49,443 bases of DNA from the NCBI GenBank assembly GCA_902780935.1, contig CACZHP010000034.1:1-49443 (forward strand), in the 5' to 3' direction. Below the pieces are notes generated by a model. The model had not been told where the DNA came from. It worked only from the letters and a program-made list of their open reading frames with translations, and did not search any database. Numbering within the stretch: the first letter of the stretch is position 1; each line of letters opens with the position of its first letter. The position numbers and the translations under genes are program-made. Below, one piece after another: positions 4,683 through 41,904 of the stretch. The DNA is from an uncultured Bacteroidia bacterium. GTDB taxonomy: Bacteria > Bacteroidota > Bacteroidia > Bacteroidales > UBA932.

Positions 4683-7600
4683 ATGAAGATTATCACAAGG
4701 GCGCTTTCAGCCCTCGCTATTATCGTTTCCTCCTCTGCCGCCGCGCAGGAGGGCATCACCCAGATCGAGAAGAATTTCAAGGACATTCCCTGGAGCCAAC
4801 CGACCGGGGTTTACTGGTACTGGGTATCGGGCAATATGTCCGCCGACGGAGTCGTCAAGGATCTCCAGGCCATGAAGAAGGCCGGGATCACCAGGGTACA
4901 GATCGGAATGATCGGCGAGGGCCAGGGCGCTCCCCAGGGGCCTGTGAGGATGTTCACTGAGGAGTGGTGGAATATCCTCCACACCATGTTCAAGACGGCG
5001 GGCGATCTCGGGATCGAGGTCGGTCTTTTCAACTGTCCCGGATGGAGCCAGAGCGGTGGCCCGTGGGTCAAACCCTCCCAGTCGATGCGTTATCTCGGGA
5101 GCGTGAAAGACACCTTGATAGGTCCTTCAATATTTAAAGGAAAACTTCCTGTTGTCGGAGAGAACGCTCAGGATGTCAATGTTTTGGCGTATCCTTTAAT
5201 TGAATCGGAATCTGTCTTTTCCGTCTCCGGAGACCCTGCGAGGGACACCGAGGTCACCTTTTCCTCCGGCAAGCCCGCTTCCGTGAGGACTATAATCGTG
5301 GAGCCCACCTCGACACCCGGTTCGACTGATGTCGAGTTGCTCGTCCGGAAGGACGGGGCGCTCAAGAGCGTGGAGAAATTCTATGTTGACAGAAGCAACG
5401 CCGCGATCAATGTCGGTTTCGATCCTGTCGCCCTGGTGACGATCTCAATCCCCGAGACTTCCTGTGAGACTTTTGTCGTCCGTATCGAGAAGCCCGGGGT
5501 GATAAAGAAAGTGACGCTCTCCACTGTCCCCGCTGTCGAGCGTTTCGCCGAGAAGACATTCGCGAAGATGTGGCAGACCCCGCACCCGATGTGGGACGCC
5601 TACATGTGGCGGGAGCAGCCTACCGATGAGGGCGGGCTGGTTGTCAATCCTTCGGAAGTAATTGATATTTCTGAATATATGTCCGCTGATGGGACTCTGT
5701 CCTGGAAAGTCCCGGAGGGGAAGTGGGTGGTCGAGAGAACGGCCATGCTTCCTACCGGATCCATGGATTCCCCGGCTCCGGAGGAGGGCACTGGCCTTGA
5801 GACCGACAAGATGAGCGAGAAGCACATCCGGACGCATTTCGACAATTACCTCGGCAAGATCCTGGAGAGGATTCCCGCTGAGGACAGGAAGACTTTCAAG
5901 ATAGTCGTGGAAGACAGCTACGAGACCGGCGGCCAGAATTGGACCGACGACATGATCCCCGATTTCAAGAAAGCCTACGGGTACGATCCGACCCCTTATA
6001 TTCCTGTGTTGAGCGGTGTTGTGGTGGGCAGCAGGGACATTTCCGACCGTTTCCTCTGGGATCTGAGGAGGCTCGTGGCGGACGAGGTTTCCTATAATTA
6101 TGTGGGTGGTCTAAGGGAGGTCAGCAATGAGCATGGCCTCACCACATGGCTCGAGAATTACGGCCATTGGGGATTCCCTGGTGAGTTCCTGCAATATGGC
6201 GGCCAGTCCGACGAGATCGCCGGGGAGTTCTGGAGCTTCGGAGATCTTGGAGACATCGAGAACCGTGTGGCTTCTTCCTGCGGGCATATCTACGGCAAGA
6301 AGATGGTCTGGGCCGAGAGCTTCACTTGCGGCGGACCTGATTTCACCCAGTACCCCGGTCAGATGAAACAGCGGGGAGACCGTTTCTTCACCGAGGGGAT
6401 AAACGCCTCGCTGATGCACCTTTACATCCAGCAGCCTGACGACCGGGTCCCCGGAATCAACGCCTGGTTCGGCAATGAGTTCAACCGCCACAACACCTGG
6501 TTCTCCCAGATGGATGTGTTCAGCGACTACCTCAAGCGTTGCAACTACCTTCTTCAGCAGGGACGTTATGTCGCCGATGTGGCGTATTTCCTTGGTGAGG
6601 ACGCTCCGAAGATGACGGGTATCCGGGATCCTGAGATTCCGGACGGATATTCCTATGACTTTGTCAACGCGGAGGTCCTGATGGATGCCTCAGTCCGGGA
6701 CGGGAAACTGCTCCTAAAGAGCGGGATGGAATATTCCGTGCTTGTCCTTCCCAAAATCAAGACCATGCGTCCTGAGTTGCTTGAAAAGCTGGAAGCTCTT
6801 GTCAAAGAGGGCCTTACGATTCTTGGACCGGCACCGGAGAAGTCTCCGAGCCTTGCGGGATATCCCGAGGCTGACAGAAAGGTAAAGTCGATCGCCGAGC
6901 GGATGTGGCAGACTTCAGAGGAGCCTTTCGCAACTTCCGTGGATTATGGAAAGGGCAAGATCTACCGCTCCAGCTCGCTGGAGCAGGTGCTCTCCGACAA
7001 AGAGATTGTGGCTGATTTCCGCGCTGATGATGAGGAGCTTCCGCTGCAGTTCATCCACCTGACCCTGAAAGACGCTGAAATTTATTTTGTCTCGAACCAG
7101 GGCGACAGCCCGGTGGAGTTCGACGGCATATTCAGAATTACCGGCAAGGCTCCAGAGCTTTGGAACCCCCTAACCGTCGAGACCCGGCCTCTGCCCGAAT
7201 ACAAAGCCCTGACTAAAACCACGAAGATTCCTCTCCGCCTGGACGCTTTTGAAAGCTCGTTCATTGTGTTCAGAAATGACGCTCCCGCCACCGCACCACA
7301 AGGACGTAACTATCCGGAAGAGGCCATTGTGGCTGAGGTCGCTGGCCCTTGGAAGGTGGCTTTCCAGGAAGGCAGGGGAGGCCCTGAGGCTCCAGTGATG
7401 TTCGAGTCTCTCTCAGATTGGACGACAAACGCCGATTATAGGATCAAGTATTTCTCCGGGACGGCCACATATTCAAGCTCGTTCAAGCTTAAGAAGGTCC
7501 CTTCCGGGCCGGTATATATCGATCTCGGCAAGGTGATGGTGATGGCGAAAGTGAAAGTCAACGGGGAATATGCCGGGGGAGTGTGGACCGCTCCTTATCG

Positions 7601-7808
7601 ATTGAATATCACCGACTTCCTTAAGAAAGGTTCGAACTCGATTGAGGTCGAGGTGGTGAATTGCTGGCGAAACCGTCTTATCGGCGAGAAGGAGGTTGTC
7701 CCGGAGTCAGAGCGCTTCACATTCCAGACTTCCACATATCTCGATAAAGACGACGACCTCCAATCCTCCGGCCTCCTCGGCCCCGTCAGGATCCTTTCCG
7801 TCTCTTAA
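4683..7808 (+). CDS. Secreted GH106-like glycoside hydrolase (alpha-L-rhamnosidase family)
   Basis: A 1041-residue protein with a signal peptide (residues about 1-21, ending SSAAAQ), so exported. The start of the mature protein (FKDIPW..GVYWYWVSGN.S.DGVVKDLQAMKKAGI) and the NCPGWSQSGGPWV segment match the TIM-barrel region of GH106 enzymes. Candidate catalytic acids are Glu410/Glu414 in VVEDSYETG and Glu545 in WAESFTCGG; assigning the acid/base and nucleophile needs alignment. The C-terminal 200 residues hold a galactose-binding-like beta domain (KVKVNGEYAGGVWTAPYRL). Likely substrate is a rhamnosyl-containing plant glycan, but specificity cannot be read from sequence. No SusC/SusD genes are beside it. 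Confidence 0.85.
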   Translation: MKIITRALSALAIIVSSSAAAQEGITQIEKNFKDIPWSQPTGVYWYWVSGNMSADGVVKDLQAMKKAGITRVQIGMIGEGQGAPQGPVRMFTEEWWNILHTMFKTAGDLGIEVGLFNCPGWSQSGGPWVKPSQSMRYLGSVKDTLIGPSIFKGKLPVVGENAQDVNVLAYPLIESESVFSVSGDPARDTEVTFSSGKPASVRTIIVEPTSTPGSTDVELLVRKDGALKSVEKFYVDRSNAAINVGFDPVALVTISIPETSCETFVVRIEKPGVIKKVTLSTVPAVERFAEKTFAKMWQTPHPMWDAYMWREQPTDEGGLVVNPSEVIDISEYMSADGTLSWKVPEGKWVVERTAMLPTGSMDSPAPEEGTGLETDKMSEKHIRTHFDNYLGKILERIPAEDRKTFKIVVEDSYETGGQNWTDDMIPDFKKAYGYDPTPYIPVLSGVVVGSRDISDRFLWDLRRLVADEVSYNYVGGLREVSNEHGLTTWLENYGHWGFPGEFLQYGGQSDEIAGEFWSFGDLGDIENRVASSCGHIYGKKMVWAESFTCGGPDFTQYPGQMKQRGDRFFTEGINASLMHLYIQQPDDRVPGINAWFGNEFNRHNTWFSQMDVFSDYLKRCNYLLQQGRYVADVAYFLGEDAPKMTGIRDPEIPDGYSYDFVNAEVLMDASVRDGKLLLKSGMEYSVLVLPKIKTMRPELLEKLEALVKEGLTILGPAPEKSPSLAGYPEADRKVKSIAERMWQTSEEPFATSVDYGKGKIYRSSSLEQVLSDKEIVADFRADDEELPLQFIHLTLKDAEIYFVSNQGDSPVEFDGIFRITGKAPELWNPLTVETRPLPEYKALTKTTKIPLRLDAFESSFIVFRNDAPATAPQGRNYPEEAIVAEVAGPWKVAFQEGRGGPEAPVMFESLSDWTTNADYRIKYFSGTATYSSSFKLKKVPSGPVYIDLGKVMVMAKVKVNGEYAGGVWTAPYRLNITDFLKKGSNSIEVEVVNCWRNRLIGEKEVVPESERFTFQTSTYLDKDDDLQSSGLLGPVRILSVS

Positions 7809-7871: not shown

Positions 7872-8048
7872 TGTCGGCGAGGTAATGAGACACCTCCGGA
7901 GGGCTTCGCTCACTACGTTCGCTCCGTACCCTCCCACTGTCTCCTGCGTCATCGCCTCAGGCGATAACTTGTATCCAGCGGGCCCCATCCCTCTTCCCGT
8001 GGCCGAGGGGGGCCACGCCTCCGAAGGTGTCTCATTACCTCGCCGACA
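7872..8048 (+). repeat. Long hairpin element, copy 1
   Basis: Outer arms 7872-7902 and 8018-8048 pair over 31 bases with a single mismatch. Inside, in order: a TTCGCT/GTTCGCTCCG-rich block, CCCTCCCA (7929-7936), a small hairpin ATCGCC-TCA-GGCGAT (7951-7965), GGGCCCC (7980-7986), and a terminal hairpin GTGGCC-GAGGGG-GGCCAC (7999-8016). The same block order with different stem sequences is seen in copies 2 and 3, which points to a conserved fold. Function unknown. Confidence 0.85.
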
Positions 8049-8051
8049 GTG

Positions 8052-8225
8052 CGGAAGAAGACTCCCACTGGAAGGCCTGTCCACCCCCGGACAGGGGCAG
8101 GGGGAGGGGCCCGACGATAGTTGGGTATGAGACGTAAGCTCGCTTACGGCGAGTGCCCAAATAGCGTTGGGAGGGGCCGGAGTGAGCGTAGCGAACGGAG
8201 TCCTGACAGTGGGAGTCTTCTTCCG
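8052..8225 (-). repeat. Long hairpin element, copy 2 (inverted relative to copy 1)
   Basis: Outer arms 8052-8070 and 8207-8225 are a perfect 19-base inverted repeat. Read on the minus strand the interior repeats the order of copy 1: TCGCTACGCTC (8184-8194), CCCTCCCA (8168-8175), small hairpin CGTAAGC-GA-GCTTACG (8133-8148), GGGCCCC (8106-8112), terminal hairpin CCTGTCC-GGGGGT-GGACAGG (8076-8095). Only three bases separate it from copy 1. Confidence 0.85.
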
Positions 8226-8290
8226 AACTGGGCGGCTAGTTGCCGGACCAGATCAGGGCTGTTGATTCTTTAAACAATAAGCGCGAATAA

Positions 8291-8320
8291 AATAAGGACC
8301 GTCTCGCGACGGTCCTTATT
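8291..8320 (-). terminator. Intrinsic terminator of the sugar-oxidation cassette
   Basis: AATAAGGACCGTC and GACGGTCCTTATT form a perfect 13-base stem around a four-base loop. On the minus strand it is followed by TTATT, 28 bases after the stop of the gene ending at 8349. Best terminator in the window. Confidence 0.9.
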
Positions 8321-8348: not shown

Positions 8349-9257
8349 TTACTTGGCGTAGGACTCCTTGACGAAGTCGGAGCCGAGAAGGTAATCGGCG
8401 CAAGCCTTGATGCTGGCGTTCCAATCACCCTTGGTGAAGCCCTCGAGCTCCACGATGTAGTTCTCCAGACCAGCGGTCTCGGCATTGTTGAAGATGGCGT
8501 CGAAGCCCACCATGCCGCTCTCACCGAGCTCATAGTGATCCTTGATGTGCAGCATCTTGAAGCGGCCGGGATACTTGCGGAAGTACTCGACAGGATAGGC
8601 GCGGCCCATGCAAGCCCAGTACACATCCATCTGGAAGAACACATAGTTGGGGTCGGTGTTCTCGAGCATGAAATCATAGACCACCTTGTCCTCGACCTTG
8701 TTGAACTCATGGGCGTGGTTGTGGTAGCCATACTTGATGCCGGCCTCAGCGCACTTCTTGCCGATGGCGTTGAAGTAGTCGCAATAGGTCTTGAGATCCT
8801 TCAGGTTATCGGGGACAGGGAAGCCCGGAGTCACGATGTAGGAGCAGCCGGCCGCCTTGTGGACGGCGATTGCCTTGTCCCACCACTTCATCGACTCGTC
8901 GAACTTGCCGGTCTTCAGCTCCTCGGCGGAAAGGGAGTGGCCGATGTGGCTGGAGAGGGACTTCAGTCCGGCGGCCTCCAGGTCAGCCTTGTACTGCTCA
9001 GGCTTGACACCATAGAGAAGACCTTCCTCACCATTGTAGTTGGCAGCCTCGGCGGCTGTGTAACCCATCTCGGCAAGAGCCTTGAAGACCTGCTCGTGGT
9101 TGGCGGCATACTTCTCTGCGTCGCCGATGACATTCCTAATGCTGTAGAGCTGAAGGGCGATCTCTTTCTTGACCTTGACAGGCTCCTGCGCCTTAGGCTG
9201 CTGCCCACAGGCGGCAACCATCAGAGCGCTCATCAACAGAATGCTAATTCTATTCAT
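8349..9257 (-). CDS. Sugar phosphate isomerase/epimerase-like TIM-barrel lipoprotein
   Basis: A 302-residue xylose-isomerase-like TIM-barrel protein (QLYSIRN at the start of the barrel; GYHNHAHEF, QMDVYWA and HIKDHYE segments carrying likely metal ligands). The N-terminus has a lipobox ending in Cys17 (LMVAAC), so it is probably a periplasm-facing lipoprotein rather than a cytoplasmic sugar-phosphate enzyme. It is the third gene of a cassette after a Gfo/Idh/MocA oxidoreductase and a DUF1080 protein. In that context it may act on a keto-sugar or carry out the elimination/hydration steps of oxidative glycoside cleavage; this role is inferred from known cassettes of the same make-up. Confidence 0.85.
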   Translation of the reverse strand: MNRISILLMSALMVAACGQQPKAQEPVKVKKEIALQLYSIRNVIGDAEKYAANHEQVFKALAEMGYTAAEAANYNGEEGLLYGVKPEQYKADLEAAGLKSLSSHIGHSLSAEELKTGKFDESMKWWDKAIAVHKAAGCSYIVTPGFPVPDNLKDLKTYCDYFNAIGKKCAEAGIKYGYHNHAHEFNKVEDKVVYDFMLENTDPNYVFFQMDVYWACMGRAYPVEYFRKYPGRFKMLHIKDHYELGESGMVGFDAIFNNAETAGLENYIVELEGFTKGDWNASIKACADYLLGSDFVKESYAK

Positions 9258-21850: not shown

Positions 21851-21864
21851 CGGCACTTCAAACA

Positions 21865-22183
21865 GGTGGGGCGATCCGCCGCGCTTCGAGGCTCCGGTCT
21901 CGGGGTGAGGAAAGTCCGGACAGGTCAGGGCACCCTGCTGGGGAAAGACCAGGCGGGAGAGATCTCGCGCGGCCGTGACAGAAAACAACCGCCGCTTCGG
22001 TGGCAAGGGTGAAAACGCGGGGTAAGAGCCCACGACGCGCGGCTGGTGACAGCCCGCGGGCACGGCACCAGGGCCTGCAAAACCAAATATACTGGCAGAT
22101 GAGGGCTGCCCGCCCGATGCCAGGGGGTAGGTCGCGTAGATAAATGGCGGATTTAAAAACAGAAACCGGCTTACGGCCCCACC
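21865..22183 (+). ncRNA. rnpB: RNase P RNA (class A)
   Basis: Catalytic RNA of ribonuclease P, which trims tRNA 5' ends. The universally conserved segments are present: GAGGAAAGTCCGGAC at 21907-21921, the ACAGAAA element, GGGTAAGAGCCCACG-like P10/P11 region, and the 3' block ATGGCGGA...AGAAACCGGCTTA. P1 pairs GGTGGGGC (21865-21872) with GCCCCACC (22176-22183). A T-rich run (22184-22195) follows. Ends are set from P1 and may extend a few bases. It lies between glpC and menA. Confidence 0.95.
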
Positions 22184-22195
22184 TTTTTATTTTTT
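22184..22195 (+). terminator. T-run after RNase P RNA
   Basis: TTTTTATTTTTT directly follows the P1 3' strand, so P1 itself may serve as the terminator stem. The run ends 4 bases before the menA ATG. Confidence 0.5.
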
Positions 22196-24646: not shown

Positions 24647-24655
24647 CGTACGAAA

Positions 24656-24738
24656 TAAGCGGGGGTACCGGACATAAACCCGTCCGGTTGAGATCATACC
24701 CATTGAACCTGACGCGGGTAATGCCGCCGTAGGGAAGC
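24656..24738 (+). promoter_or_regulatory. TPP (thi-box) riboswitch
   Basis: The thiamine pyrophosphate aptamer is recognised from GGGGGTACCGG, then GGTTGAGATCATACCC, GAACCTGA, and GTAATGCCGCCGTAGGGAAGCA. Stem P4 pairs GCGG with CCGC around TAATG-type sequence. It lies in the 5' leader of the TonB receptor gene 42 bases downstream. Possible expression platform: GGCGGC at 24763-24768 can pair with GCCGCC at 24723-24728 of P4, so the two folds would exclude each other (inference). Confidence 0.95.
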
Positions 24739-24770
24739 ATAATCTCAATAGTGCCTGAGTAAGGCGGCCC

Positions 24771-41782: not shown

Positions 41783-41904
41783 GCCACTCGAGACTAGTCT
41801 CCCAAACCGCCGCTTCGCGGCCCCTCCCACGGCTACGCCGCGGGTCCCTCCCTCTTACGTGGCCGAGGGTGGCCACGGGTTTGGGAGGCTAGTCTCGCAG
41901 TGGC
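41783..41904 (+). repeat. Long hairpin element, copy 3
   Basis: Outer arms 41783-41808 and 41878-41904 pair over 26 bases with one G-U-type change and one bulge. Interior in the same order as copy 1: CGCTTCGCGG, CCCTCCCA (41822-41829), small hairpin CGGC-TAC-GCCG (41830-41840), GGGTCCC (41842-41848), and terminal hairpin GTGGCC-GAGGGT-GGCCAC (41859-41876), which differs from copy 1 by one loop base. The arms are unrelated to those of copies 1 and 2. It is 122 bases, about 50 shorter. Confidence 0.85.

Follow-up and report, generated by a model that had tools for sequence, protein, structure and literature searches.

The window analysed here is a stretch of 49,443 nucleotides from an uncultured Bacteroidia bacterium of the Bacteroidales (UBA932; GCA_902780935.1), corresponding to contig C34 of a 3.05-Mb assembly. 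In its interval 7872-8225, two palindromic elements lie head to head between convergent open reading frames (ORFs) at 4683-7808 (plus strand) and 8349-9257 (minus strand). A third copy is found near 41.8 kb, and a fourth lies beside upp on contig 8 of the same genome. The family to which they belong has a common anatomy, with variable self-complementary arms of ~25 bp that enclose a conserved core. The copies of the window are described below, with scores from R1, a covariance model built from 53 copies (alignment A1); G and L handles denote genomes and loci throughout.

7872-7902, plus strand: left outer arm of copy 1, 31 nt of locus-specific sequence
8018-8048, plus strand: right outer arm of copy 1, complementary to 7872-7902 with one mismatch (30/31 pairs)
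7903-8017, minus strand: core of copy 1, the minus strand being the G-rich folding strand; R1 match at 7897-8021, minus, 114.6 bits
7999-8016, minus strand: stem S1 and loop of copy 1; the loop CCCTC (minus) pairs with GAGGG as the pseudoknot stem
7951-7965, minus strand: middle hairpin ATCGCC/GGCGAT of copy 1, flanked by the conserved GGATACAAGTT and GACGCAGGAGAC strands
8047-8070, plus strand: left outer arm of copy 2, 24 nt
8207-8230, plus strand: right outer arm of copy 2, complementary to 8047-8070 with one mismatch (23/24 pairs)
8071-8206, plus strand: core of copy 2, the plus strand being the G-rich folding strand; R1 match at 8072-8207, plus, 99.7 bits
8077-8094, plus strand: stem S1 of copy 2, CTGTCC-ACCCCC-GGACAG
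8100-8104, plus strand: pseudoknot strand GGGGG of copy 2, pairing with the S1 loop CCCCC
8186-8192, plus strand: GCGTAGC of copy 2, a GNA-capped mini-hairpin within a tandem G-A internal loop
41789-41808, plus strand: left outer arm of copy 3, 20 nt
41878-41897, plus strand: right outer arm of copy 3
41787-41881, minus strand (folding strand): R1 match of copy 3, 53.3 bits, with a minimal middle hairpin

The arms of copy 2 overlap the right arm of copy 1 by 2 bases. A first-pass annotation, made from the letters alone, had reported the head-to-head arrangement, the block order common to both copies and two stem swaps (GTGGCC/GGCCAC to CTGTCC/GGACAG, and ATCGCC/GGCGAT to CGTAAGC/GCTTACG), all of which are present in the sequence. 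Its outer arm of 31 bp for copy 1 is likewise right (30 of the 31 positions pair), while the 19 pairs it gave to copy 2 fall short of the actual arms (23/24). That account is extended below by a pseudoknot, by the assignment of the fold to one strand, by insertions in frame within genes and by an association with a transposase.

Copies 1 and 2 fold as DNA beyond their dinucleotide shuffles (z of -6.7 and -6.2, with 0 of 200 shuffles reaching the native fold in each case). For the family as a whole, A1 retained 53 of 65 extracted sequences after false ones (window 47.8 kb and L005 at 450) and near-duplicates had been dropped. With a structure of 33 pairs, 95.1% of the cells are paired, as compared to 37.5-50.6% with the partners slid by 1-3 columns, although this percentage is biased towards the structure because it was drawn from the same 53 sequences and related rows are not independent. 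Changes on both sides of a pair are firmer evidence of the fold: 20 pairs changed in this way, with 196 such cells compared to a shuffle mean of 51.6. Covariation thus exceeds both the shuffles and the slid controls, in agreement with the earlier suggestion that the compensatory stem changes reflect a single-stranded fold. A separate count of compensatory changes across homologous loci was set aside, as it mingled independent insertions with orthologues.

In 99.6% of cells, the S1 loop (ACCCCC) is paired to a GGGGG that lies downstream, and this pairing exchanges with CCCGC/GCGGG and CCCTC/GAGGG. S1 was read in 169 of 174 extracted copies, including 92 with ACCCTC..GAGGG, 48 with ACCCCC..GGGGA and 10 with ACCCGC..GCGGG, the other combinations being rarer. 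On the G-rich strand, this pairing makes a classical H-type pseudoknot, with a loop 1 of one nucleotide, no loop 2 and a loop 3 of about five. The core also has a stem in which G·T wobbles are conserved, internal loops of tandem G·A, and hairpins that are often capped by GNA. We assign the fold to the G-rich strand (minus in copies 1 and 3, plus in copy 2), because two wobble positions stay G·T there (46/53 and 31/44) and arm mismatches are more often G·T on that strand than on the other (60 and 22, respectively; p=3e-5). That the fold is under selection on the G strand is nearly certain. In A1, the pseudoknot exchange letter at column 32 (G, C or A) also tends to vary with the letters after the 3' GGGAGGG at columns 112-113 (GC, TC, TA), which suggests a tertiary contact or subfamilies.

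The first-pass annotation had proposed a search for further copies in related genomes, and many were found. With copy 2 as the query, 31 of 101 genomes matched, its own included, and all of them belong to the same genus. R1 detected the element in 63 of 73 genomes of the genus and in 1 of 47 outside it, with 36 unlisted misses assigned outside the genus from list order. The richest genome has at least 29 R1 matches, and all per-genome counts are lower bounds, as about 29 candidates were scored per genome. At the family level, R1 matched 37 of 119 genomes in 10 of 25 sampled genera. A DNA pattern run over GTDB genomes returned at least 119 stretches; among the 80 matches listed, all titles name Bacteroidales, Bacteroidia, Bacteroidaceae or Candidatus Coprenecus, and many name ruminant stomach or horse faeces samples. 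The host may be Cryptobacteroides or a neighbouring genus. The 354-base query of the interval had no match among INPHARED phages or PLSDB plasmids, nor did one pattern among IMG/VR viral contigs, and carriage by phages or plasmids was dropped. No Rfam family reaches its gathering score over the element (the highest match under permissive settings has 18.6 bits, with a cut-off of 100), and no publication describing the family was recognised in a literature search, which subscription papers lay outside. In some loci the element has repetitive neighbours: L002, L014, L015 and L060 have another repeat next to it, centred on CTCCTAGGCCCCCTTCGGGGACG or the complement of this sequence, and at L016, L020, L043 and L044 (G023 and G047) elements lie within arrays of ~51-bp repeats with GTGTGCAAAACGGCC and CCCCCGGGA.

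Comparison of orthologous loci with and without the element, which had also been proposed, gave a clean case: a 137-nt element in G104 corresponds to just 6 nt in G003, between flanks that are 87% and 86% identical. At this single site, a possible 3-bp TCC repeat is the sole candidate for a target-site duplication. The G003 site lacks the whole unit, both arms included, so a long palindrome need not pre-exist, and insertion into pre-existing long hairpins was ruled out as a requirement. The folP and murB sites have weak native inverted repeats, and short hairpins may be preferred as targets. In G016, a comparison of joined flanks with a near relative gave no usable empty site. Several sites have been filled more than once. 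For example, G037 and G038 have a copy in folP in one orientation, G019 has one in the opposite orientation, and G045 has one as well; among the 25 folP segments compared, 16 (G028 included) have the plain form of 34-37 residues and 5 have other, longer forms. The murB gene has two sites. Site 1 holds a copy in G037, G034 and G007; site 2 holds one in G037 and, reversed, in the genome of L235, and none in G005 or G034. In truB, copies are found in L170, L195, L223 and, by similarity, L053. There is hardly any room for doubt that the element is mobile. Other in-frame repeats, several of which encode HSERSEES-like peptides, occupy the same MurB loop at site 1 (L283, L285, L287, L293 and L298), which indicates that this loop collects several repeat families.

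Copies are found between genes and also, often in frame, within housekeeping genes. We listed 35 cases inside ORFs, part of which were verified; as ORFs were picked by their openness, out-of-frame insertions would escape. Of 15 ORFs tested, 14 match named families, namely KsgA (in the genome of the window), MurB (three), DHPS, TruB (three), TruA, RibF, YggS, YgiQ (two) and RsmH, with the RibF match below the cut-off (its ORF is cut by the locus end) and no match for L281. The KsgA gene of the window's genome (L344:727-1794) has an in-frame palindromic insertion that includes the element (R1, 45.9 bits). Stop codons are depleted in the cores: 3.92 of 6 frames are open on average, compared to 3.25 in shuffles (166 cores, p=3e-15).

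The arms behave differently from the core. In 129 of 174 elements they reach at least 14 nt with a score of at least 13 (median length 25); 49 of these sets are perfect, and mismatches amount to 129 of 3189 pairs (4%). In G016, 22 of 253 pairs of copies have cores that are 93-98% identical but unrelated arms (~0.5 identity), 15 of them involving copy L150; the same genome has a burst of near-identical copies with one imperfect arm pair in common. At the upp locus, three arm positions distinguish G000 from G017, and each of these changes is mirrored in the opposite arm; G042 has one mirrored and one unmirrored change; the mirrored changes make the arms appear to drift in concert. In the G042 orthologue of the window locus, an inner arm pair is kept, inverted, and the cores are nearly gone, from which we infer that the window copies are older than the split of G000 and G042. 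When the 354-base query was run against its own genome, the arms of the window had no further match at E<=0.001. The arm region of copy 2 matches a G047 gene at 23/24 positions, with E=3.7e-4 in one genome and thus ~0.04 expected over 101, which is probably chance, though not proven to be so; an origin of the arms as copies of host sequence was rejected on these two results. It is possible, and somewhat doubtful, that hairpin-templated copying, in the course of transposition or later, restores an arm from the sequence of its partner.

Next to copy 2, positions 8294-8317 hold a perfect AAGGACCGTC/GACGGTCCTT hairpin, a likely terminator. Elsewhere in the window, 21863-22189 corresponds to class A RNase P RNA and 24651-24753 to a TPP riboswitch.

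The same genomes encode a family of RAYT-like HUH Y1 transposases (class A) of ~290 amino acids with a long C-terminal part. Within the genus, the element occurs in 59 of 62 genomes with class A as compared to 4 of 11 without it (p=2e-5), and the copy numbers of the two are correlated (rho 0.60, p=2e-8). An element lies ~400 bp or less from each of three diverged Y1 genes (L044, L113 and L223), and among solved structures 4er8 aligned best with the predicted class-A model. This link is correlative, and the Y1 family is a somewhat favoured candidate for the mobiliser. A second HUH family, class B, is present in the same genomes; in its alignment (A3), no tyrosine is invariant where one would be expected, and no structure with the class-B protein sequence was found in the PDB.

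Taken together, we estimate a probability of about 0.6 that the copies are non-autonomous miniature palindromic elements moved in trans as folded single-stranded DNA (ssDNA) by the class-A Y1 transposase. The core is kept by selection as a folded G-rich single strand, with the S1-loop pseudoknot, the G·T stem, the tandem G·A loops and the GNA caps. The element would move as ssDNA, as a folded G-strand hairpin, in a cruciform or on the lagging strand, and a lineage-specific Y1 transposase of the HUH class, similar in type to RAYT/TnpA-REP, may carry out the cutting and joining in trans. In a weaker step of this scheme, the arms would stay complementary yet drift freely through the hairpin-templated copying mentioned above. 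The first-pass annotation had offered a palindromic transposable element, a REP-like element moved in trans and a structured RNA; the copies in relatives, the filled and empty sites, the covariation and the lack of an Rfam family best support the former two, and the RNA option is less favoured. Neither of the outcomes that it had named as refuting, a lack of further copies or a lack of covariation, was observed.

Several observations weigh against this reading. One clean empty site was found, and at murB site 2 the letters of the outer arms coincide with native codons, so that insertion of whole arms is insufficient as the sole explanation there. The orientation of copies shows no bias relative to local GC skew (51/114, p=0.30) and thus no sign of a lagging-strand preference. 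The co-occurrence statistics ignore kinship, and Y1 and the element could share a phylogeny. At the family level Y1 (PF01797) is present in 30 of the 37 genomes with the element and in 51 of the 82 without it (p=0.055), and the PF01797 search found none in the other 7 of the 37. Three class-A genomes (G010, G031 and G043) have no R1 match. In contrast to typical REPtrons, where repeats flank the transposase gene, the 5-kb stretches around the eight class-A genes of A2 contain no element over at least 1.7 kb on each side; L360 and L361 were left out here, the apparent element in L361 being a false pattern match. Foldseek alone gave the class-A model no match at E<=0.001 (best 3.2e-3, to the ISDra2 transposase). 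The preference of GNA loops for DNA is general chemical background.

These points leave a minority chance, appreciable all the same, that the element moves in trans through another transposase or recombinase and that the Y1 association merely reflects shared ancestry. Such an explanation draws on the weak family-level association, on the seven genomes without PF01797 and on the absence of a REPtron layout around the class-A genes read. However, the within-genus co-occurrence is strong for both presence and copy number, and G014, which has no PF01797 match and at least 14 element matches, does carry a class-A gene.

Considerably less probable is the same mobile element with a structured RNA intermediate that is reverse-transcribed, as in a bacterial SINE-like element. 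The G·U wobbles, the pseudoknot and the tandem G·A pairs would suit RNA equally well, but counts of reverse transcriptase (PF00078) do not track those of the element (rho 0.04, 37 genomes of the genus). The richest of these 37 genomes, G027 (at least 29), G016 (at least 28), G023 (at least 24) and G004 (at least 23), show no PF00078 match (G016 and G023 are 97-98% complete, G027 and G004 72-78%), and reverse transcription was rejected as the main mechanism. The loops also speak for DNA: the commonest apical loops are C-GNA-G (21/52 and 28/53), and middle tetraloops are more often GNYA (7) than GNRA (3). The sequence GCGNAGC is an exceptionally stable DNA mini-hairpin. We therefore consider an ssDNA rather than an RNA intermediate quite likely.

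A conserved cis-acting RNA or terminator, arising at many loci and kept for a host function, is very improbable: the core is deeply conserved and the element is in some cases found downstream of a gene (upp of G000, G017 and G042), but the bursts, the absence at an orthologous site, the predominance of GNA among the loops and the presence inside ORFs in both orientations (with a loose ORF rule, 33 of 114 copies are C-strand-coding and 28 are G-strand-coding) favour a mobile ssDNA fold.

No known family fully accommodates the element, whether REP, REP/RAYT, RPE, MITE, IS200/IS605, an Rfam family or a retroelement. The available text of one source describes REPs as 20-40 bp long with a GTAG or CGTC tag, and RPEs as short, CGTC-tagged palindromic elements dispersed in frame in ordinary protein genes (PMC3733652). 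Like REPs and BIMEs with their RAYT (TnpA-REP) proteins, our family has a folded single strand, a TnpA-REP-related Y1 protein in the same genomes and 4er8 as the structure best aligned to that protein. In contrast, it measures about 100-185 bp from arm to arm, has unrelated arms, a pseudoknot and no flanking REPtron found, and carries no unpaired GTAG or CGTC tag at the hairpin end: the ends are variable arms, and the CGTC of the core (C strand) lies within a paired stem. Tag and length thus place it outside the REP definition. It shares with RPEs the in-frame insertion in ordinary protein genes and the depletion of stop codons, whereas the phylum, the locus-specific arms, the core pseudoknot and the lack of an unpaired CGTC tag differ, RPEs being compared by description only. 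TnpA-REP subclass 2.6 of Bacteroidetes, in the available part of its description, has 179 amino acids and genes flanked by 'atypical secondary structures', which are also found at other places of the genome (PMC6006769). The phylum and the atypical structures with copies elsewhere are similar, while class A was not found flanked and, at ~290 amino acids, has the long C-terminal part; this comparison too is by description. MITEs are likewise short, non-coding and dispersed with inverted-repeat ends, but here the terminal repeats are not common to many copies (one G016 burst has the same arms), which sets the family outside that definition, and the loci read showed no parent transposon with matching ends. 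With 166 of 174 inter-arm cores at 60-160 nt, the space is too short for an IS200/IS605-style tnpA gene, and the element-rich genomes without PF00078 speak against a group II intron or other retroelement. On the best reading, its mode of action is that of REPs mobilised by RAYT, its insertion in frame recalls RPEs, and it is a RAYT/REP-like miniature mobile DNA of an apparently unnamed family.

A further proposal, which we regard as unlikely, is that the family represents a distinct class of mobile DNA, which moves as a pseudoknotted ssDNA hairpin, rebuilds one outer arm from the other and has a core whose shape is recognised by a dedicated RAYT-like enzyme. Each copy would then have a palindrome of its own, while the core that it encloses stays invariant.

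Our results give a widespread lineage of gut Bacteroidales a repeat family whose fold can be read by covariation down to a pseudoknot. FolP, MurB, TruB and KsgA carry open-frame insertions of ~35-60 residues, with recurrent sites in FolP, MurB and TruB. As the same genomes encode a candidate enzyme, two questions come within reach of experiment: by what route palindromic elements inserted in frame, RPEs among them, are moved, and whether the tertiary shape of ssDNA can be recognised by a transposase.
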